Under the pieces are notes generated by a model. That model was given only the letters and a program-made list of their open reading frames with translations, made no database searches and was not told the origin of the DNA. A stretch of 35,765 bases of DNA from NCBI GenBank assembly GCA_031277475.1, contig JAITMJ010000054.1:1-35765 (forward strand). Reading direction: 5' to 3'. This document shows, in pieces, positions 72 to 35,765 of the stretch (positions are counted from its first letter, which is position 1; each line of letters starts with the position of its first letter). The stretch is from Flavobacteriaceae bacterium (GTDB taxonomy: Bacteria > Bacteroidota > Bacteroidia > Flavobacteriales > Weeksellaceae). A program made the position numbers and the translations under genes.

Positions 72-118
72 ATATTTTTTTTGCAAATATAATATATATA
101 TATTAAATTAACAATACC
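1..118 (-). mobile_element. End of an insertion sequence, probably IS1-like (partial)
   Basis: The segment holds the start of a transposase-like reading frame (1-71, minus strand) and an AT-rich end. The similarity between this locus and the copy at the right end of the window stops at position 118, where the minus strand reads GGTATTGTTAA; IS1-family ends often begin with GGT. The IS therefore seems to have inserted into the secreted-protein gene at 68-844. The element runs off the left edge, so its other end and the target duplication cannot be seen. Family assignment is tentative. Confidence 0.55.
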
Positions 119-844
119 ATAGATTTTAGTAATTTTTTCAGGAGTGCTGAATGTTACATTCGTAATTTCTTTTTCAGGATTCTGATTTTTGAAAGAATTA
201 AAATCTTTGTAAAAACCGTTTGTTAGCTCCGTTGAATTGTAAAGACTTAATTTTTGTTTTTCAATATTGTCAAAGTTTTTTAAATCATCAAATGTATAAT
301 AATCTGTAGCCTGTGCTTTTACGGAGATATTTTTACTGATGAAATTACTAATCATTTCACTTCCTTTTTTCATGACTGCTTTGGTAACATCCATTGAAGA
401 ATGATCAATCACAGAATCCATCTCACTAAGGTATGTGTAAGTATCATCATCATTTTTTGCAAACAGGTATGCTTGAAAATAGCAATAACCATGCTCGCTG
501 AATGCTCCGGTAAGTTCCGCAAAATACAATTGTTTCAGATACATTACAATAGTTCCGTTTTCTGTTTGATCTCCGTTAATATGATTTAGAAGATTTTGAA
601 ACTGATTAGCAAGGCTCGTAGCGGGTACTACTTTTGCCTTTGCATTGAATGCTCCTTTTTGAACAATTCCCAAAGAAGTTGTGTCTATCCGAGCGTCAAT
701 TAATTTAATCGTTTTATAATAACTTTTGTCCAACTTTTGTTCGGGCATACTTATGGAAAAATCTTCGAAGCGCTTTTGAGCGGTCAAAGTTCCCATTAAA
801 CCTACTGCAATCAGCAGATAAATTCTTTTTAATTTTCCTTTCAT
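68..844 (-). CDS. Secreted protein of unknown function, C-terminally truncated by an IS
   Basis: The product has a signal peptide (about residues 1-22, ending LTAQ) and no recognised domain. Residues up to about 242 (FSTPEKITKIY) are native. The last ~16 residues (GIVNLIYIYYICKKNI) are encoded by the IS end, and the stop lies inside the transposase start. The 3' part of a near-identical copy at 34801-35297 shows what is missing: an ELIDGKEKEIKKDE segment, a hydrophobic glycine-rich stretch (FFGIIGGLIASG) and a C-terminus ending ITEVKK. The gene follows icmF by 91 bases on the same strand. The truncated protein may be non-functional. Confidence 0.7.
   Translation of the reverse strand: MKGKLKRIYLLIAVGLMGTLTAQKRFEDFSISMPEQKLDKSYYKTIKLIDARIDTTSLGIVQKGAFNAKAKVVPATSLANQFQNLLNHINGDQTENGTIVMYLKQLYFAELTGAFSEHGYCYFQAYLFAKNDDDTYTYLSEMDSVIDHSSMDVTKAVMKKGSEMISNFISKNISVKAQATDYYTFDDLKNFDNIEKQKLSLYNSTELTNGFYKDFNSFKNQNPEKEITNVTFSTPEKITKIYGIVNLIYIYYICKKNI
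118..310 (-). repeat. 193-bp inverted repeat, left copy (pairs with 34801-34993)
   Basis: This stretch of the truncated secreted gene recurs at 34801-34993 in opposite orientation with 3 mismatches in 193 positions by eye. Two of the three are synonymous; one changes Thr to Ala. Similarity stops sharply on both sides. The left copy continues into the N-terminal half of the gene, the right copy into the C-terminal half. Confidence 0.9.
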
Positions 845-935: not shown

Positions 936-3900
936 CTACATATTCCGCCTATATTTCCCGCCCACTTCAAACAGCGCATTCGTGATTTGTCCGAGCGAAC
1001 AGAATTTCACGGCTTCCATCATCACGGAAAAAAGATTTTGTTGATTGATTGCCGCATATTGCAATTTCTGCAAATATTCTTCGGATTTCTCGCCGTTCGA
1101 GGTTTGGAAATTTTTCAGATTTTCGATTTGCAACCGCTTTTCTTCTTCGGTAGAACGGATGACTTCTCCCGGCAGAACAGTCGGCGAACCGTCTTTCCCG
1201 AGAAACGTATTCACGCCGATTATCGGATATTCGCCGGTGTGTTTCAGCATTTCGTAGTGCATGCTTTCCTCCTGAATTTTAGAACGTTGATACATCGTTT
1301 CCATCGCTCCCAAAACGCCGCCGCGTTCCGTGATTCTGTCAAATTCCGCATAAACCGCTTCTTCTACCAAATCCGTCAGTTCTTCAATGATGAACGAACC
1401 TTGAAGCGGATTTTCATTTTTCGCCAAACCGAGTTCTTTATTGATAATCAGTTGAATAGCCATCGCTCTTCGCACAGATTCTTCGGTTGGCGTGGTGATG
1501 GCTTCGTCGTAAGCGTTCGTGTGCAGCGAATTGCAGTTGTCATAAATGGCATAAAGTGCTTGAAGCGTGGTTCTGATGTCGTTAAAATCAATTTCCTGCG
1601 CGTGAAGCGAGCGACCCGAAGTTTGAATATGATATTTCAACATTTGGCTTCTTTCGTCTGCGCCGTATTTCAGTTTCATCGCTTTTGCCCAGATTCTGCG
1701 GGCAACTCTGCCGATTACCGCGTATTCCGGATCGATTCCGTTAGAAAAGAAAAACGATAAATTCGGAGCGAAATCGTTGATGTTCATGCCTCGGCTCAAA
1801 TAATATTCCACATAAGTGAAACCGTTTGCCAGCGTGAAAGCCAACTGCGAAATCGGATTGGCACCGGCTTCGGCGATGTGGTAACCGGAAATGGAAACCG
1901 AATAAAAATTTCGAACTTTATTTTCAATAAAATATTCCTGAACATCGCCCATCAATCGGAGTGCAAATTCGGTGGAAAAAATGCAAGTATTTTGCGCTTG
2001 ATCTTCTTTCAAAATATCTGCCTGAACGGTTCCGCGAACATTTGCAATGGTTTCGGATTTTATGTTTTCGTAGGTTTCCGGGTCTAAAATTTCATCGCCT
2101 GTGATTCCCAAAAGTTTCAAACCCAAACCGGTGTTGGAAGGCGGCAAATCTCCGTTGTAGAAAGGGCGTTTCAAACCTTTGTCGTCGAATTTTTCTTTTA
2201 ATTTTTCTTCAACTTTATGCCAAAGATTATTTTCGCTAATGTATTTTTCCACGTTTTGGTCAATGGCGGCATTCATAAAAAAAGCGAGCAACATCGGTGC
2301 GGGACCGTTAATCGTCATCGAAACGGAAGTCAAAGCATTAATTAAATCAAAACCGGAATAGAGTTTTTTGGCATCGTCTAAAGTAGCGATGGAAACGCCT
2401 GCATTGCCTATTTTTCCGTAAATATCGGGTGGAAAATCCGGGTCTTGTCCGTAAAGCGTTACCGAATCGAAAGCGGTGGACAAACGTTTTGCGGGCATTT
2501 CTGCGGAAACGTAATGAAATCTTCGGTTCGTTCTTTCCGGGCTGCCTTCGCCGGCGAACATTCTGGTCGGGTCTTCGCCGGTGCGTTTAAACGGATAAAT
2601 TCCGGCGGTAAATGGAAATTGCCCGGGAACATTTTCCTGACTTTTCCAACGCACCAAATCTCCCCAATCTTGAAATTTCGGCAAAGCGATTTTCGGAATT
2701 TTCAAATGCGAAAGCGATTCGTATTTGGTTTGCACATTGATTTCTTTGCCTCGAACGAGGTAGGTATAAACGTCCTGCTCGTGCTTCTTTTTAAATTCGT
2801 GCCAGCCGTTTAAGAAATAAATATTTTCTTGGCTCAAATCTTTTTTAATTTTTTGATAGCGTTTTTCGATGATTTCCTGCGATGCGGAATCGCCTTCCAA
2901 AATATTTTTCGCACCGTGAAGTTGATAAAGTTTTCTCGCAATTAAGGCTTGTTCCAGCGTTTCATTATCGTAAACACGATTGTTTTCCACGATTTCCGAA
3001 AGATAGCGCACGCGTTTCGGCGGAATAATCGTGGCTTCCTCGGAAACATTTTGCTCGATGTATTCGTTTAAATTAATATTTTCAACTTTCGTATTGATTT
3101 TTTTAATGAGTTGATTGTACAATTCCGTGGTTCCCCAATCGTTGAACTGACTTGCCTTAGTGGAAAAAACCGGCATTTCTTCCAATGTTTTATCAAAATA
3201 TTGATGATTTCTCTGAAACTGCTTTCTTACGGCTTGAAGCGCATCCAAAGCACCGCGTTTATCGGATTTGTTTAAAGCGACAAAATCTGCATAATCCAAC
3301 ATATCAATTTTTTCCAACTGCGTGGAAGCACCGTATTCGGGAGTCATCACATATATCGAAACATCGGCGATTTCGGTGATTTCCGAGCCGCTTTGTCCGA
3401 TTCCGGAAGTTTCTAAAATAATGATGTCGGGTTTTGCCAATTTTAAAACGTTGAGCGCGGAATGAATGTGCGGCGAAACCGAAACATTGTTCTCGCGAGT
3501 AGCCATTGAACGCATATAAACGCGTTTGTCATTAATGGAATTCATCCGAATCCTATCGCCCAAAAGTGCGCCTCCGGTTTTCTTTTTTGAAGGATCTACG
3601 GAAATAATCGCTATTTTTTTATCGGGATTTGCGCGCAAAAATCGGCGAACCAATTCGTCCGTCAGCGAGGATTTTCCGGCGCCGCCGGTTCCTGTGATGC
3701 CGATAATCGGAATTCTCCTCACCCCCGACCCCTCTCCAAAGGAGAGGGGAGAAGTGGAACGTTTATTTATTTCTTCGATTAATTCGGGTTTTTCTTCGGA
3801 AAAATTTTCTACGGCAGAAATTATTTTGGCGATGGATTTTGAATCTTCAAAACGGATATTGTCCAAATCCTCGATTTTCACGTCTTTTCCTGTGGCGAAA

Positions 3901-4328
3901 TCGGATTTTTCCACCACATCGTTTATCATGCCTTGAAGTCCCATTTCTCTGCCGTCGTCCGGAGAATAAATTCTGGCGATGCCATAATCCATCAAATCCT
4001 TGATTTCTTCGGGGAGAATCACGCCGCCGCCGCCGCCGAAAATTTTAATTTGCGGAGATTTTTTTTCTTGAAGCAAATCGTAAATGTATTTAAAATATTC
4101 GTTGTGTCCGCCTTGATAAGATGTCAGGGCAATCGCATTCGCATCTTCCTGAATGGCGCAATTCACAACTTCTTCCGCAGATTTGTCGTGCCCGAGATGA
4201 ATCACTTCGCAACCCGTAGCCTGAATCATTCTTCGCATAATATTAATCGCGGCGTCGTGTCCGTCAAAAAGGGAGGCGGCAGTAACCACCCGCACTTTAT
4301 TTTCGGGAATATATTTTTGGTTTTCCAT
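936..4328 (-). CDS. icmF: Fused isobutyryl-CoA mutase/GTPase (methylmalonyl-CoA mutase family), IcmF
   Basis: Predicted B12-dependent acyl-CoA mutase fused to its G-protein chaperone, interconverting isobutyryl-CoA and butyryl-CoA (related acyl-CoAs possible). Domain order matches IcmF: N-terminal cobalamin domain with DGHDAA (residues 22-27); a MeaB-type GTPase with P-loop GTGGAGKS (about 212-219) and NKSD; then the mutase barrel with [16 protein letters not shown]. The start is placed at ATG 4328, giving 1130 aa. A TTG start at 4367 is unlikely because a TAnnTTTG box at 4355-4362 lies within that extension. A 16-residue insert (about 190-205, [16 protein letters not shown]) between the cobalamin and GTPase domains comes from a palindromic repeat and keeps frame. 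The last ~80 bases are duplicated at 35312-35391. Confidence 0.9.
3717..3757. repeat. Palindromic repeat inserted in frame in icmF
   Basis: The core is a perfect inverted repeat, CCCCTCTCC-AAA-GGAGAGGGG (about 3730-3750), embedded in C-rich sequence. On the minus strand it encodes [13 protein letters not shown] and on the plus strand [12 protein letters not shown], a peptide that recurs as an interspersed repeat in many Bacteroidota. It lies in the linker before the GTPase domain. Confidence 0.75.
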
Positions 4329-11541: not shown

Positions 11542-13857
11542 ATGGAAAACTTTTTGAAAGAACTCAACACCGCGCAATATGAAGCCGTAACTTCTACGGA
11601 CGGTCCGCTGATGGTTTTGGCGGGTGCCGGCTCCGGAAAAACTCGCGTACTCACGATGAGAACCGCTTTTTTGATTTCAAACGGCGTGGATCCTTTCAAT
11701 ATTTTGGCACTCACTTTTACCAACAAAGCTGCGAGAGAAATGAAAGACAGAATCGCAAAAGTGGTCGGCGAAAGCAATGCGAGAAGTATTTGGATGGGAA
11801 CTTTTCACTCGGTTTTTGCCAGAATTTTGCGAAGCGAAGCCCGATTTCTCGGCTATCCGTCGAACTTTACGATTTACGACACGCAGGATTCCCAAAACGT
11901 CATCAAAAAAGTTTTGAAAGAAATGAACATCGATTCCGATCTTTATAAACCCAAAAAAGTTCAGGCTAGAATTTCGACTTACAAAAACAACCTCATCACC
12001 GTAAAAGCCTATTACAACAACCCGGAATTGATAGAAGCCGACGAAAAAGCGAATATGAAATTCATCGGGCAGATTTATCAAAAATATGTGGAAACCTGTT
12101 TCAGAAACGGAGCGATGGATTTCGACGATTTACTGCTGAAAACCAATGAATTGCTGACGAGATTTCCGGAAATTTTAGCCAAATATCAAGACCGTTTTCG
12201 CTACATTCTCGTGGACGAATATCAAGACACGAACCATTCGCAATATTTAATTGTGAAATCTTTGGCTTCAAAATTTGAAAATATTTGTGTGGTCGGCGAT
12301 GATGCGCAGTCTATTTACTCTTTTCGAGGTGCGAATATTTATAATATTTTGGGCTTTAAAAAAGATTATCCCGATGCAAAAACGGTTTCATTGGAACAGA
12401 ATTATCGCTCTACGCAAAACATCGTAAACGCTGCAAACGCCGTGATTTCCAAGAATACGCAGCAGTTCAAAAAAAATGTTTTCAGCCAAAATGAAACCGG
12501 CGAAAAAATAAAAGTATTTCGCGCACTTTCCGATGCCGATGAAGCCAATTTTGTGGCGAACAATATTTGGGAACTTCACAACGCTAATCAAATGAAATTC
12601 AATGATTTCGCTATTTTATACCGCACCAATTCGCAAACCCGCGCTTTTGAGGATGCACTGCGAAAAAAGAATATTCCGTACAGAGTTTACGGCGGTTTGT
12701 CGTTTTACCAAAGGAAAGAAGTGAAAGATTTGGTGGCTTATTTGCGGCTTTTAATCAATGAAAACGATACGGAAGCACTGATGAGAATCATCAATTATCC
12801 CATTCGCGGAATTGGGGAAACTTCGCAAAATAAATTAATTGTTCTCGCTGATTCACAAAACATTACGATTGCTAAAATTTTAGACAACATCGGTTTTTAT
12901 GCTCCGCAACTCGGTTTAAACAACGGCGTGATTACCAAACTTTCGGATTTTTGGAGTATGATAAAAGCGTTTCAAGTTTTGCTGAAAACCGAAAATGCGT
13001 ATCAAGTGGCGATGGAAGTGGCGAAACGAAGCGGTTTAATCAAGTTTTTGAAAGACGACCAAACGCCCGAAGGAATTTCCCGCGTGGAAAATGTTCAGGA
13101 ATTGATGAACTCGATGCAAGGTTTTATTGACGAGCAGCAGCAGTTGGAGGACGGCGATGCTTCGCTTGCGAATTTTCTGGAAAACATCGCACTTTCCACA
13201 GACCAAGACAATAAAGATAAAAACGAGGGCGACAAAGTTTCTTTGATGACGGTTCATCTTTCCAAAGGTTTGGAATTTCCGGTGGTTCATCTCGTTGGTT
13301 TGGAGGAAAATCTGTTTCCGAATTTTATGAGTTCGTCCACGCGAGATGAGTTGGAGGAGGAACGCCGATTGTTTTATGTAGCCCTCACGAGAGCCGAAAA
13401 ACAGGTGTTTTTCACTTATGCCGTTTCCAGATTTCGGTGGGGAAAAATCACGGATGCCGATCCTTCGAGATTTTTAAGCGAAGTGAATGCGGAATATATT
13501 GATTTCATCAATCCCGCTGTGGAAAGCCGTTTTGTGAACAATTCCGGATTGAAATCGAATATTTTTGATGATATTCCGACCGAAACTTTTTCGTTTAAAA
13601 AACCGTTTCGACAACCCTTCGACTCCGCTCAGGGTGACAACGCCAAAAGCCAAAAGCCAAAAGCCAACTCAAACCCGTCGCTTCTGCAAAAATCAACAGT
13701 TCAGACGGAAATTCTTTTCAAAATATTGAAGTGGGCGATAAAGTTCGGCACGATAGATTTGGAATCGGCGAAGTGGTTTTCCTTGACGGAACCGACCCGG
13801 AAAACATCAAAGCAAAAATCCAATTCCAAAACGGCGACGAAAAAAATCTGCTTTTAA
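11542..13857 (+). CDS. pcrA: ATP-dependent DNA helicase PcrA/UvrD (SF1A), C-terminal tail frameshifted
   Basis: A 3'-5' DNA helicase for repair and replication-conflict resolution. Motifs in order: Walker A AGAGSGKT (27-34), GTFHS, VDEYQDTN (motif II), VGDDAQSIYSFRG (III), LEQNYRST (IV), TVHLSKGLEFPVVHLVGLEE (V), and YVALTRAEKQ (VI). The helicase core is complete. After about residue 690, a repeat-derived insert (RQPFDSAQGDNAKSQ...) shifts the frame. The conserved tail (VGDKVRHDRFGIGEVVF ... LLLRFAKLVKV) remains intact in the next frame and ends at a TAA at 13881-13883. As read, the protein ends at 13857 with an unrelated lysine-rich peptide. Real mutation, programmed slippage or sequencing error cannot be told apart here. 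Confidence 0.88.
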   Translation: MENFLKELNTAQYEAVTSTDGPLMVLAGAGSGKTRVLTMRTAFLISNGVDPFNILALTFTNKAAREMKDRIAKVVGESNARSIWMGTFHSVFARILRSEARFLGYPSNFTIYDTQDSQNVIKKVLKEMNIDSDLYKPKKVQARISTYKNNLITVKAYYNNPELIEADEKANMKFIGQIYQKYVETCFRNGAMDFDDLLLKTNELLTRFPEILAKYQDRFRYILVDEYQDTNHSQYLIVKSLASKFENICVVGDDAQSIYSFRGANIYNILGFKKDYPDAKTVSLEQNYRSTQNIVNAANAVISKNTQQFKKNVFSQNETGEKIKVFRALSDADEANFVANNIWELHNANQMKFNDFAILYRTNSQTRAFEDALRKKNIPYRVYGGLSFYQRKEVKDLVAYLRLLINENDTEALMRIINYPIRGIGETSQNKLIVLADSQNITIAKILDNIGFYAPQLGLNNGVITKLSDFWSMIKAFQVLLKTENAYQVAMEVAKRSGLIKFLKDDQTPEGISRVENVQELMNSMQGFIDEQQQLEDGDASLANFLENIALSTDQDNKDKNEGDKVSLMTVHLSKGLEFPVVHLVGLEENLFPNFMSSSTRDELEEERRLFYVALTRAEKQVFFTYAVSRFRWGKITDADPSRFLSEVNAEYIDFINPAVESRFVNNSGLKSNIFDDIPTETFSFKKPFRQPFDSAQGDNAKSQKPKANSNPSLLQKSTVQTEILFKILKWAIKFGTIDLESAKWFSLTEPTRKTSKQKSNSKTATKKICF
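13605..13667. repeat. Interspersed repeat inserted in the pcrA linker
   Basis: Contains CCCTTCGACTCCGCTCAGGG followed by TGACAA and three GCCAAAA units. Related TTCGACAAACTCA...TGACA elements occur between genes near 18673, 19512 and 32237. Here the element sits in coding sequence and separates the helicase core from its tail, which is one frame off. Confidence 0.7.
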
Positions 13858-13883
13858 GGTTTGCGAAGTTGGTGAAAGTGTAA
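13668..13883 (+). repeat. pcrA 3'-end segment, copy A (reference copy)
   Basis: The last 216 bases of pcrA in the ancestral frame. It encodes a small tail with VRHDRFGIGEVV and ends RFAKLVKV plus TAA. Partial copies follow at 16569, 17084, 17861, 18554, 19441 and 20371, all in the same orientation. Confidence 0.9.
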
Positions 13884-16568: not shown

Positions 16569-16784
16569 CTCAAACCCATTGCTTCTGCAAAAATCAACAG
16601 TTCGGATGGAAATTCTTTTCAAAATATTGAAGTGGGCGATAATGTTCGGCACGATAGATTTGGAATCGGTGAAGTGGTTTTCCTCGATGGAACCGACCCG
16701 GAAAACATCAAAGCAAAAATCCAATTCCAAAACGGCGACGAAAAAAATCTGCTGCTGAGGTTTGCGAAGTTGGTGAAAGTGTGA
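16569..16784 (+). repeat. pcrA 3'-end segment, copy B (216 bp)
   Basis: Aligns without gaps to copy A over 216 bases with about 12 differences by eye. Most are synonymous in the pcrA tail frame (exceptions: a Val-to-Ile and a Lys-to-Asn codon). The frame is open and ends RFAKLVKV plus TGA. No helicase sequence precedes it. Confidence 0.92.
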
Positions 16785-17044: not shown

Positions 17045-17083
17045 TTTTTTAGACTCACACAAAATTAATGTTTTTTTTCAAAA

Positions 17084-17129
17084 CAAAAAAAATCTGCTAT
17101 TGAGGTTTGCGAAATTGGTGAAAGTGTGA
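17084..17129 (+). repeat. pcrA 3'-end segment, copy C (last ~45 bp)
   Basis: Matches only the last codons of pcrA (NLLLRFAKLVKV plus TGA). Differences from copy A are synonymous (CTA/TTG Leu codons, AAA for Lys). It lies downstream of the DUF1640-like pseudogene. Confidence 0.8.
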
Positions 17130-17670: not shown

Positions 17671-17856
17671 TTCGGCGATGGTTTTTCTAGTTATAAATTT
17701 CGTGTTTCAACATCAATAATACAAAAAATATCAATATTTAATGATTTTACGGGCTTTATCGTTTTCAATCTCTCCGATCAAGACACCGCCGAAAAATTAA
17801 GCCTTCAAATTGAAGAACTCATCAAACAGATTCGGAAAACAGACGGAGGGTTGTAA
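17671..17856 (+). other. Possible gene fragment (low confidence)
   Basis: An open stretch encodes SIFNDFTGFIVFNLSDQDTA then EKLSLQIEELIKQIRKTDGG. It looks like the beta-alpha end of a small protein rather than random translation. Its only in-frame ATG lies within the start of the divergent membrane gene and no ribosome site is evident, so it may be a remnant C-terminus. Confidence 0.25.
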
Positions 17857-17860
17857 TTTT

Positions 17861-17905
17861 GTTTTCCTTGGCGGAAAACATCAAAGCAAAAATCCAATTC
17901 CAAAA
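17861..17905 (+). repeat. pcrA 3'-end segment, copy D (internal part)
   Basis: Matches the middle of the tail (VVFLD... to KIQFQN) with an 11-base deletion between two GGA triplets. It stops at CCAATTCCAAAA, close to where copy G also stops (CCAATTCC). Confidence 0.75.
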
Positions 17906-17911
17906 AATCAG

Positions 17912-17919
17912 TATTTTTG
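17912..17919 (+). promoter_or_regulatory. Possible -7 box for the ParE-type toxin-antitoxin pair
   Basis: TATTTTTG matches TAnnTTTG, directly after pcrA tail copy D and 34 bases before the antitoxin ATG at 17954. Confidence 0.4.
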
Positions 17920-17953
17920 TATCGTCTGCAATGCACCGATAAAAAGTTTTGCT

Positions 17954-18214
17954 ATGGAACATACAAGTTTAAATGAAATTTACAGCGAGATACAGCATTT
18001 GTCAAATTCAGACCGACAAACGCTCTACAATCGAATGAAAAATGAGTTTTACGGAAATACCGAAATCGTGGCATACACCACCGACGGCGAACCGCTTAGC
18101 CTCGATGAATACCGTAAAAGAGTTGAGATTGGTATTGAACAATGTGTAAAAAATGAAGGCATCAGTTTGGAAAATTTGAGCAAAGAGTTGGGTTATATTT
18201 ATGAAAGTTTATAA
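17954..18214 (+). CDS. Antitoxin of a ParE/RelE-type toxin-antitoxin pair
   Basis: 86 aa from the ATG at 17954; an in-frame start further upstream would run through pcrA tail copy D and is rejected. The protein is helical and acidic, with GEPLSLDEYRKRVEIGIEQC, a pattern common in antitoxins partnered with RelE/ParE toxins in Bacteroidota. Its end overlaps the toxin start by 14 bases, as in many toxin-antitoxin operons. Expected to neutralise the toxin and repress the operon; no DNA-binding motif was identified with confidence. Confidence 0.75.
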   Translation: MEHTSLNEIYSEIQHLSNSDRQTLYNRMKNEFYGNTEIVAYTTDGEPLSLDEYRKRVEIGIEQCVKNEGISLENLSKELGYIYESL

Positions 18215-18518
18215 AATAATACTCTCAAATTTGGCAAAATCAGATTTGCAAAACATTGTATCGTATCTGACAAATACCGAAAGTTCTGCAACAGCAAAAT
18301 ACGTTGAACACGGTATTTTATCGGCAATGAAACGGCTGAAATATTTTCCTGCCGCGTATCCTCAAGACGAATTCGCCGGCACTGACAAGATAGAAATTCG
18401 CTTTCTTATCAAATGGAGTTACAAAATATTGTTTTTCATTGAAGCAGATACCGTTCAGATTGTCGGAATATTTCACACGGCACAAAATCCTGAAAAACTG
18501 ATGGGTGAAATGGAGTAA
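18201..18518 (+). CDS. ParE/RelE-superfamily toxin
   Basis: 105 aa, normal length. Starts YKIILSNLAKSDLQNIVSYL (basic strand-helix), continues with RLKYFPAAYP, and ends with IRFLIKWSYKILFFIEAD and VQIVGIFHTAQNPEKL, the strand-loop pattern of plasmid-stabilisation ParE/RelE toxins. Whether it acts on gyrase (ParE) or ribosome-bound mRNA (RelE) is not decidable by eye; the FHTAQNPEKL ending favours the ParE-like group. Follows its antitoxin with overlap; flanked by pcrA tail copies D and E. Confidence 0.85.
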   Translation: MKVYKIILSNLAKSDLQNIVSYLTNTESSATAKYVEHGILSAMKRLKYFPAAYPQDEFAGTDKIEIRFLIKWSYKILFFIEADTVQIVGIFHTAQNPEKLMGEME

Positions 18519-18553
18519 AAATATCCGTTATTTATCACGAAAATTATCCGAAA

Positions 18554-18738
18554 ACCGACCCCGAAAATATCAAAGCAAAAATCCAATTCCAAAACGGAGA
18601 TGAAAAAAATCTGCTTTTGAGGTTTGCGAAGTTGGTGAAGGTGTGATTGTTTAAAGTTTAAAAAAATCTACTTTCGACAAACTCAATCAGACACATTTAA
18701 ACTGAAAATATCTTTTTTGTCTTGACCACGGATTTTGT
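18554..18738 (+). repeat. pcrA 3'-end segment, copy E, plus shared flank
   Basis: 18554-18646 matches the tail from TDPENIKAK to VKV plus TGA; all differences from copy A are synonymous. From about 18603 to 18738 the sequence, including the 3' part of the 59-aa gene, is repeated at 19441-19580, so the gene pair between is flanked by a ~136-bp direct repeat. Confidence 0.85.
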
Positions 18739-19440: not shown

Positions 19441-19580
19441 AAAAAAAATCTGCTTTTGAGGTTTGCGAAGTTGGTGAAGGTGTGATTGTTTAAAGTTTAA
19501 AAAAAATCCGCTTTCGACAAACTCAATCAGAGGCACATTTAAACTGAAAATGTCTTTTTTATTTTGACCACGGATTTTGT
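19441..19580 (+). repeat. pcrA 3'-end segment, copy F, plus remnant of the 59-aa gene
   Basis: 19441-19485 repeats the last ~45 bases of pcrA (TGA end). The following bases to 19580 match 18647-18738 closely and on the minus strand hold the last codons of a second copy of the 59-aa gene. Confidence 0.85.
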
Positions 19581-19741: not shown

Positions 19742-20374
19742 ATGACAGAACAACAACTAAAATATTATCTCTCAAGTTCAAGATTTAATGTTTATCTTGC
19801 CAAAACCAATAATCATTTTGCCAAAGCCTATCAACTTTATAAAGCAAACATTGAACTTTCCGAAGCATTTTATCCCATTCTTTCTATACTTGAAATCAGT
19901 TTGAGAAATGCTATTCACGAAACATTGAAAACACATTTTCAAGACGAGTATTGGTTTAAAAACAATTTGCCTATTGAGTTTTTACCTTTTGTCTCGGAAG
20001 CGACACAAAAACTGACAGCACAACGTAAAATCATTACTGCCGACAGAATAATTGCTGAACTGAATTTTGGATTTTGGAGCAGATTGTTTAATCGGCATTA
20101 CACAAGTCTGCTATGGAAATCTCTGAGACTTATTTTTAAAAACACCCCCAAACACTTACGACAAAGAAACACAATATCAGACGCATTATACAACGTACGA
20201 ACATTGCGAAACAGAATTTATCACTATGAGCCTATTTTCGGTAATCTGCAAGATTTGGAAAATCAATACAAACAAATGATGACATTTCTAATGTGGCTGG
20301 ATAATGGCTTACCAAAGTTACTTATTGACCTTGACCGTTTTAATGATGTGTTAAAAAAAGTAAAAACGATATAA
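19742..20374 (+). CDS. Abi family protein (AbiD/F-like, HEPN RNase fold)
   Basis: 210 aa, all helical. The ending LYNVRTLRNRIYHYEPIFGN contains R156-x4-H161 (RNRIYH), the Rx4-6H motif of HEPN ribonucleases, in the position typical of Abi-like proteins linked to abortive phage infection. Near residue 51, EISLRNAIHETL is the second conserved helix. The stop codon is formed by the first bases of pcrA tail copy G (TAAAGTTCGG), so the natural C-terminus may have been trimmed or extended by a few residues. No antitoxin is adjacent. Defence role is inferred from family. Confidence 0.8.
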   Translation: MTEQQLKYYLSSSRFNVYLAKTNNHFAKAYQLYKANIELSEAFYPILSILEISLRNAIHETLKTHFQDEYWFKNNLPIEFLPFVSEATQKLTAQRKIITADRIIAELNFGFWSRLFNRHYTSLLWKSLRLIFKNTPKHLRQRNTISDALYNVRTLRNRIYHYEPIFGNLQDLENQYKQMMTFLMWLDNGLPKLLIDLDRFNDVLKKVKTI

Positions 20375-20460
20375 AGTTCGGCACGACAGATTTGGAATCG
20401 GCGAAGTGGTTTTCCTTGACGGAACCGACCCGGAAAACATCAAAGCAAAAATCCAATTCC
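20371..20460 (+). repeat. pcrA 3'-end segment, copy G (internal part)
   Basis: Matches the tail from DKVRHDRFGIGE to KAKIQF, with one synonymous difference noted (GAC for GAT). Begins within the Abi stop codon and ends at CAATTCC, near the endpoint of copy D. Confidence 0.88.
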
Positions 20461-20539
20461 ATTCGCAGTTTTCGCAGTGCTTTTGACAAAACTAAAAACT
20501 ATAAAAACTTGTAAATTTGTAACTCAAAATAAATATTCG

Positions 20540-34752: not shown

Positions 34753-34800
34753 ATTTGGAAAGATACGAAAACCATATGCTTTTCTCATAAGGTTTTTTTG

Positions 34801-35297
34801 GCTACAGATTATTATACATTTGATGATTTAAAAAACTTTGACAATATTGAAAAACAAAAATTAAGCCTTTACAATTCAACGGAACTAACAAACGGTTTTT
34901 ACAAAGATTTTAATTCTTTCAAAAATCAGAATCCTGAAAAAGAAATTACGAATGTAGCATTCAGCACTCCTGAAAAAATTACTAAAATCTATGAATTGAT
35001 TGACGGCAAAGAAAAAGAAATCAAAAAAGACGAGGTTTATTCTGTTGTGTATCAAGGTATTTCGTATATTATATCCCTACTGAAAACCTATTCACTAAGG
35101 CAACAAAAAGAGATAATGATTTTTATTTTACAGGAAAAATAAAATCTACTGCCAAAACCGGAAATGTGGTGGCGGCATCTGCTTTCTTTGGTATTATAGG
35201 AGGTTTAATAGCCTCCGGCTCTAATTCCGTACCATTTGAACTAAAGCTTGATTATATAAACGGGGGTTTTATTCCGATTACAGAGGTTAAGAAATAA
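34801..35297 (+). pseudogene. 3' part of a secreted-protein gene, 5'-truncated and frameshifted
   Basis: Begins abruptly at ATDYYTFDDLKNFDN without a start codon; the first 193 bases match 118-310 in inverted orientation. It then supplies the C-terminal half missing from the left copy (ELIDGKEKEIKKDEVYSVVY). Near 35066 one frame ends and the next continues YIPTENLFTKATKRDNDFYF, KTGNVVAASAFFGIIGGLIA and ends ITEVKK plus TAA at 35295-35297. A single base change near TCGTATATTATATCC explains the shift. Confidence 0.85.
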
Positions 35298-35311
35298 AAA
35301 TTTGTAATGCC

Positions 35312-35391
35312 GGAAGCCGTGAAATTCTGTTCGCTCGGGCAAATCACGAATGCACTTTTTGAAGTGGGCGGGAAATATAGGAGGAATATGT
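35312..35391 (+). repeat. Copy of the icmF 3' end
   Basis: 80 bases match 938-1017 (inverted) with 4 differences by eye, all synonymous; 28 codons are open from an ATG at 35307 ([20 protein letters not shown] ... YRRNM) to a TGA at 35391-35393. No other mutase sequence is present. It directly follows the secreted-gene remnant. Confidence 0.9.
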
Positions 35392-35414
35392 GAGAGTGGC
35401 GGCTGGGTTTTGTC

Positions 35415-35486
35415 ACACTGAGCGGAGTTTTCGCCCGTAGGGCGACACAAATCTGCAGGAAATATAAAAAGCCATTCGCCAATCGC
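35415..35486. repeat. Interspersed repeat cluster
   Basis: Contains TTTTGTCACACTGAGCGGAG, a CGCCC-GTA-GGGCG hairpin (about 35430-35442) and an AAAAAGCCATTCGCCAATCG unit (35466-35485). The same repeat types flank other genes in the window. Confidence 0.55.
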
Positions 35487-35765
35487 CTACTCAAACTCAT
35501 TCAAACCGTACAAAATTTCCTTCATTTTTGAGCCGTTGATTTCCACAGGTTTGTACGCAACGTTGAATTTCTCGATGGCAACGTCCATATCGGATTTCAG
35601 TTTGGTGTATTCGGGCGGAAGTTGGCTCTGGCACTGGGTTGCGTTCTCGTAACTGTTCAGAATGATTTTAAATTTTCGGTAAAATTGTTCGCCTTGGTCG
35701 ATGAAATTGTTGTATTCATCGATGAAACGTAAGAGCCGATCTATCGGAAACTCGATGTTTACTTG
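35487..35765 (-). CDS. C-terminal part of an unidentified protein (partial at window end)
   Basis: 92 codons plus TAG, open to the window edge. The sequence is helical with aromatic residues (FPIDRLLRFIDEYNNFIDQG, ATQCQSQLPPEYTKLKSDMD, INGSKMKEILYGLNEFE). No membrane helix or known motif is seen in this part. It converges on the icmF-tail copy. Family not recognised. Confidence 0.6.
   Translation of the reverse strand, partial: QVNIEFPIDRLLRFIDEYNNFIDQGEQFYRKFKIILNSYENATQCQSQLPPEYTKLKSDMDVAIEKFNVAYKPVEINGSKMKEILYGLNEFE

Follow-up and report, generated by a model that had tools for sequence, protein, structure and literature searches.

Small genes lie between core genes and copies of their own ends at icmF, pcrA and other loci of a Flavobacteriaceae genome

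The window, a stretch of 35,765 nucleotides that is one whole contig (C26), carries two core genes whose 3' ends recur elsewhere in it (Table 1). At its left end, the gene for the fused isobutyryl-CoA mutase/GTPase icmF is followed by the first part of a secreted-type gene, which is interrupted by the end of an IS1-like element. At its right end, a second, truncated copy of the same secreted-type gene precedes a stranded copy of the icmF 3' end, and between these two ends lies pcrA with an array of partial copies of its own 3' region. The listed pcrA open reading frame stops at 13857 in a shifted frame, while the frame of the conserved C terminus stops at 13883; a short dispersed repeat with many genomic copies (13612-13667) is located within the pcrA linker near the 3' end. 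The rightmost part of the window (35411-35765) is multi-copy sequence, with 81-92% copies on contigs C116, C71 and C38, and this is probably the reason why the assembly stops there.

Table 1. Features of the window (contig C26 unless another contig is named) and of the icmF tails elsewhere in the genome
Feature	Position	Strand	Remarks
IS1-like element end at contig end	1..117	.	partner end on C5; 8-bp target duplication aaatctat
Cargo 1, secreted-type gene, 5' part	118..844	-	adjoins icmF downstream; interrupted at 118 by IS1-like end
Full-length icmF (fused isobutyryl-CoA mutase/GTPase)	936..4328	-	NF045497 1744.6 bits, above cut-off
pcrA host gene	11542..13883	+	TIGR01073 770.7 bits, under 911.2 cut-off
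pcrA tail 1	16569..16784	+	95% over 214 nt
pcrA tail 2	17083..17129	+	91%
pcrA array cargo: antitoxin-like gene and ParE-type toxin	17810..18518	+	PF05016 E 2.4e-7 on 18201-18518
pcrA tail 3, internal piece	17872..17905	+	100% over 34 nt
pcrA tail 4	18553..18646	+	93%; 3' flank common to tail 5
pcrA tail 5	19442..19485	+	95%
pcrA tail 6, internal piece	20371..20461	+	99% over 91 nt
Second cargo-gene copy, 5'-truncated (3' part, 1-nt deletion)	34800..35297	+	194 nt, 98% to 118-311; C5 alignment
Stranded icmF tail	35304..35393	+	terminates at stop TGA
icmF tail on C100	10662-10772		111 nt, 95%; directly behind a cargo gene other than the secreted-type one
icmF tail on C135	661-722		62 nt, 90%; behind a helix-turn-helix gene
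icmF tail on C5	57537-57608		74%; decayed; behind the rest of the left cargo gene

The first-pass annotation had reported that the end of icmF recurs behind the remnant of the secreted gene, and we could confirm this: positions 35304-35391 align to the reverse strand of 938-1025 with 92% identity over 88 nt, a match that is not due to chance given its E value of 1.8e-30 against the genome. A codon comparison over the last 80 nt likewise reproduced the four reported differences between icmF and its tail (GGA/GGG, GCG/GCA, CTG/CTT and CGG/AGG, all synonymous), as well as the different stop codons (TAG in icmF, TGA in the tail). The statement that the changes are only synonymous, however, fails for the interval to which it was applied (from 35307), since the codon at 35310-35312 falls inside it and has changed from ATG to CCG (Met to Pro). 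This same change is common to the tail in the window and to the icmF tails of C100 and C5. Overall, the genome contains four stranded icmF tails (at the right end of the window and on C5, C100 and C135), three of which, all but that on C5, are remote from icmF. A second full icmF, which the first-pass annotation had named as a potential source of the fragment, was ruled out because the genome holds one full copy.

The two copies of the cargo gene at the two contig ends are inverted relative to each other, and it had been proposed that an arrangement in the order icmF, secreted gene, icmF tail was broken apart by an inversion. Inversions accompanied by duplication at their breakpoints have been described in Helicobacter (Furuta et al. 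2011, as cited in PMC3874152). The left copy, however, continues through the IS1-like element into C5, where it has its own 3' end and tail. We assign this element as IS1-like from its 20-nt terminal inverted repeat, GGTATTGTTAATTTAATATA, which is present at both ends, and from the duplicated aaatctat, the transposase not being seen whole; the partner end lies on C5 at L020:19858 onwards. After this partner end, C5 carries the remaining cargo gene and then its decayed icmF tail, so that the order icmF - cargo - icmF tail is readable directly across the element and an inversion is not needed. The right-hand piece of the window (34800-35393) has a cargo/tail junction that is identical in place to that of C5, and its cargo part aligns to the C5 copy of the secreted-type gene with a 1-nt deletion. 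Because the two contig ends share 194 nt as well as the junction, this is a duplication rather than a split gene: the right-hand piece is a second copy of the junction of cargo and tail, not the missing half of the left gene. It would have arisen by a later duplication or rearrangement of this junction that left it inverted and ~34 kb from icmF, and we regard the inversion as highly improbable. A further copy of the IS1-like end is found on C104 (L123:9469-9586).

The layout of a full gene, a cargo, and a copy of the 3' end of the gene had been noted at both icmF and pcrA, and it holds at both, with six tails behind pcrA. Two of the pcrA pieces (20371-20461 and 19442-19485) represent different, non-overlapping parts of the gene end. 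As many as 21 of the 24 differences in the pcrA tails are located at third codon positions, which is at variance with local duplication followed by decay (P = 3e-5, in a test that assumes a third-position share of 46%). Because the tails thus differ almost only at third positions, they point to two functional pcrA alleles having met at this array.

A genome-wide search for stranded gene ends behind cargo, which had been suggested as a check, was strongly positive. The scan covered 1.87 of 2.99 Mb (63% of the genome) and employed 150-nt tiles at the gene end of 406 open reading frames of at least 1200 nt. The last-150-nt tiles yielded 39 stranded copies from 21 genes, as compared to 0, 1, and 3 copies for the next three inner tiles. 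Where a copy was local, i.e., on the contig of its own gene, it was located downstream and on the same strand in 16 out of 16 cases and never upstream; the icmF tail of the window, being on the other strand at the far contig end, is outside these 16. Among the 21 genes, clpB, pcrA, carB, comM, fadE, dpp7, and argS were inspected by eye, and we counted seven tails for clpB, the six for pcrA, three for carB, two for comM (on another contig), and one each for fadE, dpp7, and argS. The icmF end-piece is accordingly one of dozens in this genome, in which small foreign genes, often toxin-antitoxin pairs, reside beside long core genes. At such sites, cargo lies between the core gene, which stays whole, and a copy of 30-300 bases of the end of that gene on the far side, and this arrangement recurs at many core genes.

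Tiles from the 5' end failed as a clean negative control, yielding 46 matches that were mostly mis-called starts, signal peptides, and dispersed repeats but included a few true heads, and inner gene tiles were therefore taken as the control. Short copies of a 5' end were located upstream and on the same strand for a purH-like gene (L022:1020-2798), an ftsW-like gene (L028:2726-5204), and genes in L034 and L127. Since a few core genes carry such heads, the process is not specific to 3' ends; heads are the mirror image to be anticipated whenever a direct target duplication leaves one gene intact. The rule is an insertion flanked by a direct duplication with one intact gene kept, not a capture at 3' ends, and from the proposal of a general process that captures cargo at gene 3' ends, the generality is retained while the restriction to 3' ends is not.

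The longest array that we observed is that of clpB on C93 (L113:990-11548), where toxin-antitoxin modules and other small genes lie between the seven 3'-end copies: a HEPN/MNT pair, an addiction-module antidote, a Fic gene, PIN-domain genes (one over and one under the Pfam cut-off), and a weak RelB-like antitoxin. In the carB array on C138 (L156:198-7399), the cargo between the tails comprises, among others, a gene for a MutS-like ATPase (1530-2828) as well as two pairs of small genes that are related in sequence (EKEYFGF motif). The richness of the clpB cargo in toxin-antitoxin modules, together with the variable target duplications of ~100 bp reported for restriction-modification systems (PMC3874152, PMC3031569), would fit an active insertion with long target duplication in which the cargo, of toxin-antitoxin or restriction type, is itself the driver, an idea put forward for restriction-modification genes. 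Yet, the icmF interval and several others hold neither kind of module but secreted proteins or DUF6000, and such cargo is therefore not required for insertion; we consider a cargo-driven process unlikely.

Cargo pieces measure ~0.8 kb in the median and have a GC content of 32% (versus 39% in long genes), and most of them are without a second copy in the sampled genome. Being AT-rich and mostly single-copy, the cargo was imported rather than copied locally. These properties bear on the alternative that the cargo was copied from a source resident in the chromosome, by local duplication or by template switching. Outside pcrA, the pooled tails display a mild bias only (57 of 130 differences at third positions), and most of them are compatible with a duplication followed by decay, as this alternative would have it. 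It accounts neither for the cargo nor for the pcrA tails, which look like foreign alleles, and we hold it to be quite unlikely. Tails of one host gene, moreover, have derived changes in common (the CCG codon at icmF, and changes at carB) or flanks in common (pcrA tails 4/5; clpB tails 1/3), and this sharing suggests a re-use of tails, i.e., that later insertions copy those already in place.

The icmF site was found both filled and empty in relatives. In G234 (L266, Weeksellaceae), icmF is followed by a cargo of 136 amino acids, a direct repeat of the icmF end and terminator, and the next gene. The repeat is ~300 nt long and identical at 245 of 293 aligned positions. In three Chryseobacterium (L204, L207, L239), icmF is followed by a single terminator and the same next gene as in G234, without cargo. 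The empty site is that of relatives and not of the locus in the window itself; none of the 40 relatives searched was of the same genus. At L206, a different small cargo occupies the icmF site, and only ~75 nt around the terminator are repeated. Among Hymenobacter, two of nine icmF loci have tails, one with two tails and three cargo genes (L244; DUF6000, a PD-(D/E)XK nuclease family gene, and an unknown gene) and one with a single tail (L254), and few Weeksellaceae loci have them. The icmF end was also surveyed across the family, with three candidates scored per genome so that the count is a lower bound. Of 178 genomes with a match, at least three had more than one, namely the present genome, G234, and the MAG G012, in which the matches form a close pair. 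Within 0-5 kb behind icmF, the Hymenobacter loci L238-L254 have a gene content that changes with nearly every species, while further on a few families recur; this stretch is a variable region. In Chryseobacterium, homologues of the secreted gene itself are found immediately behind icmF or a short distance away on that side (loci L190, L193, L194, L197, L207, and L217), and the cargo family of C100 likewise has members close behind icmF in several genomes of this genus. The secreted gene could be an ancestral neighbor of icmF instead of an import. The occurrence of both families next to icmF is also what would be expected if donor DNA carried icmF along with its own neighbors.

Prophages and islands integrate into gene 3' ends, as e14 does in icd, and there the 3' end of the gene is duplicated with synonymous changes, similar to what we observe; tRNA genes are targeted by phages and islands as well. 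A recombinase that targets gene 3' ends, with the element bringing a replacement end and displacing the old one, would account for the layout and for the synonymous bias, and the stop codon or its vicinity is often where tails end, with several beginning ~105 nt ahead of it. However, a search for tyrosine recombinases (PF00589) gave no match on the array contigs C26, C93, C138, C30, C40, C65, and C112. A comparison of the pcrA pieces, some of which are non-overlapping, revealed no fixed core common to all tails, and the duplication extends over the terminator (L266) or a flank (pcrA tails 4/5). The affected genes are furthermore unrelated, some of them being affected at the 5' end, and the cargo is, unlike a prophage or island, short and devoid of a tyrosine recombinase. 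With no tyrosine recombinase, no common core, and variable ends, site-specific integration is disfavored, and we judge it very unlikely.

We consider it likely that the stranded icmF fragment goes back to a long target duplication, as its distal copy, and that this duplication arose by homology-anchored import, along the following lines. The cell would take up, probably through natural transformation, a linear DNA of another strain or species in which foreign neighbors adjoin a conserved gene end. A single homologous crossover within the common gene end, either after the DNA has circularized or combined with an illegitimate join that falls further upstream in that gene, would then yield an intact gene, the cargo, and the old gene tail. 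Pieces from mid-gene would disrupt the gene and be lost, so that surviving duplications would sit at gene ends, with tails downstream and heads upstream. Later insertions would use the resident tails and copy them again, which would build arrays, and the tails would decay afterward. Competence genes are present in the genome (comEC on C91 and dprA on C19). Riemerella belongs to the same family as the source organism. Species of this genus are naturally competent (PMC8383284, PMC7965970). The route with a join inside the anchor gene would be a case of homology-facilitated illegitimate recombination (HFIR). Both HFIR and circularization with a single crossover have been described, but the usual product of HFIR is a deletion, not a duplication, at the illegitimate joint (PMC3240628), such that many of the events require the assumption of circularization followed by a single crossover. 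In addition, the three icmF tails away from icmF call for a later rearrangement or relocation, and an unrecognized enzyme behind the insertions is possible.

Among known systems, insertion with long target duplication (Nobusato et al. 2000, as cited in PMC1643837, PMC3874152, and PMC4978471) comes with a variable direct repeat of ~100 bp that flanks the cargo and a single copy in a relative without the insertion. At the loci described here, direct repeats of tens to hundreds of base pairs surround the insertions, and, at icmF, G234 contrasts with the empty single-copy sites of L204, L207, and L239. The original cases, as relayed in these papers, differ from the present ones, which occur in Bacteroidota, carry toxin-antitoxin, secreted, or unknown cargo, keep an intact core gene at one end, and form serial arrays with up to seven copies at one gene. 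Restriction-modification cargo, which characterized the original cases without being strictly definitional, was absent from the cargo that we examined. HFIR and circularization with a single crossover share with our proposal that one homologous anchor suffices for importing nonhomologous DNA (PMC3240628); with its usual deletions set against the duplications here, HFIR is a candidate for the mechanism only. In Vibrio, a comparable process involving effector-immunity modules has also been ascribed to HFIR (PMC5361080). In those T6SS effector-immunity arrays and rhs orphan tips, serial insertions behind a common anchor similarly displace older pieces downstream and leave 3' remnants, but it is the variable end of the anchor itself that is replaced, whereas here the core genes stay functional and the cargo is unrelated to them (PMC5361080). 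Chromosomal integron cassette arrays resemble the present ones in that small genes are separated by repeats. Here, however, the repeats are ordinary coding ends of housekeeping genes that differ per host gene, the cargo is found in both orientations, and no integron integrase was detected beside the arrays in the PF00589 search of C26, C93, C138, and C65.

The mode of insertion is thus known but little studied, and its density in this genome is unusual. New here are serial arrays at core-gene ends in Bacteroidota, for which we found no paper describing arrays of core-gene tails. Such insertions explain how small genes that lack a mobility gene can accumulate next to essential genes without burdening them, and they leave a simple, searchable scar, namely a gene tail downstream of the cargo. 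The occurrence of the icmF scar in both Weeksellaceae and Hymenobacter points to gene gain by a general route, which would escape ordinary mobile-element finders. More tentatively, and with considerable doubt on our part, copies of core-gene ends might act as portable homology arms. A cargo with its tail would then be a recombinase-free cassette that inserts behind the same gene in any strain and is recopied at resident tails, and the population would share integron-like arrays of toxin-antitoxin and other small genes behind clpB, pcrA, carB, icmF, and others, moved only by host recombination. If tails are indeed re-used as arms, the outcome would be integron-like without an integrase, which is testable in naturally competent bacteria. 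Finally, we observed such a scar in a further family: in a Cyclobacteriaceae MAG, the last 85 nt of a transporter gene (L223:18329-21168) are copied downstream on the same strand at 95%.
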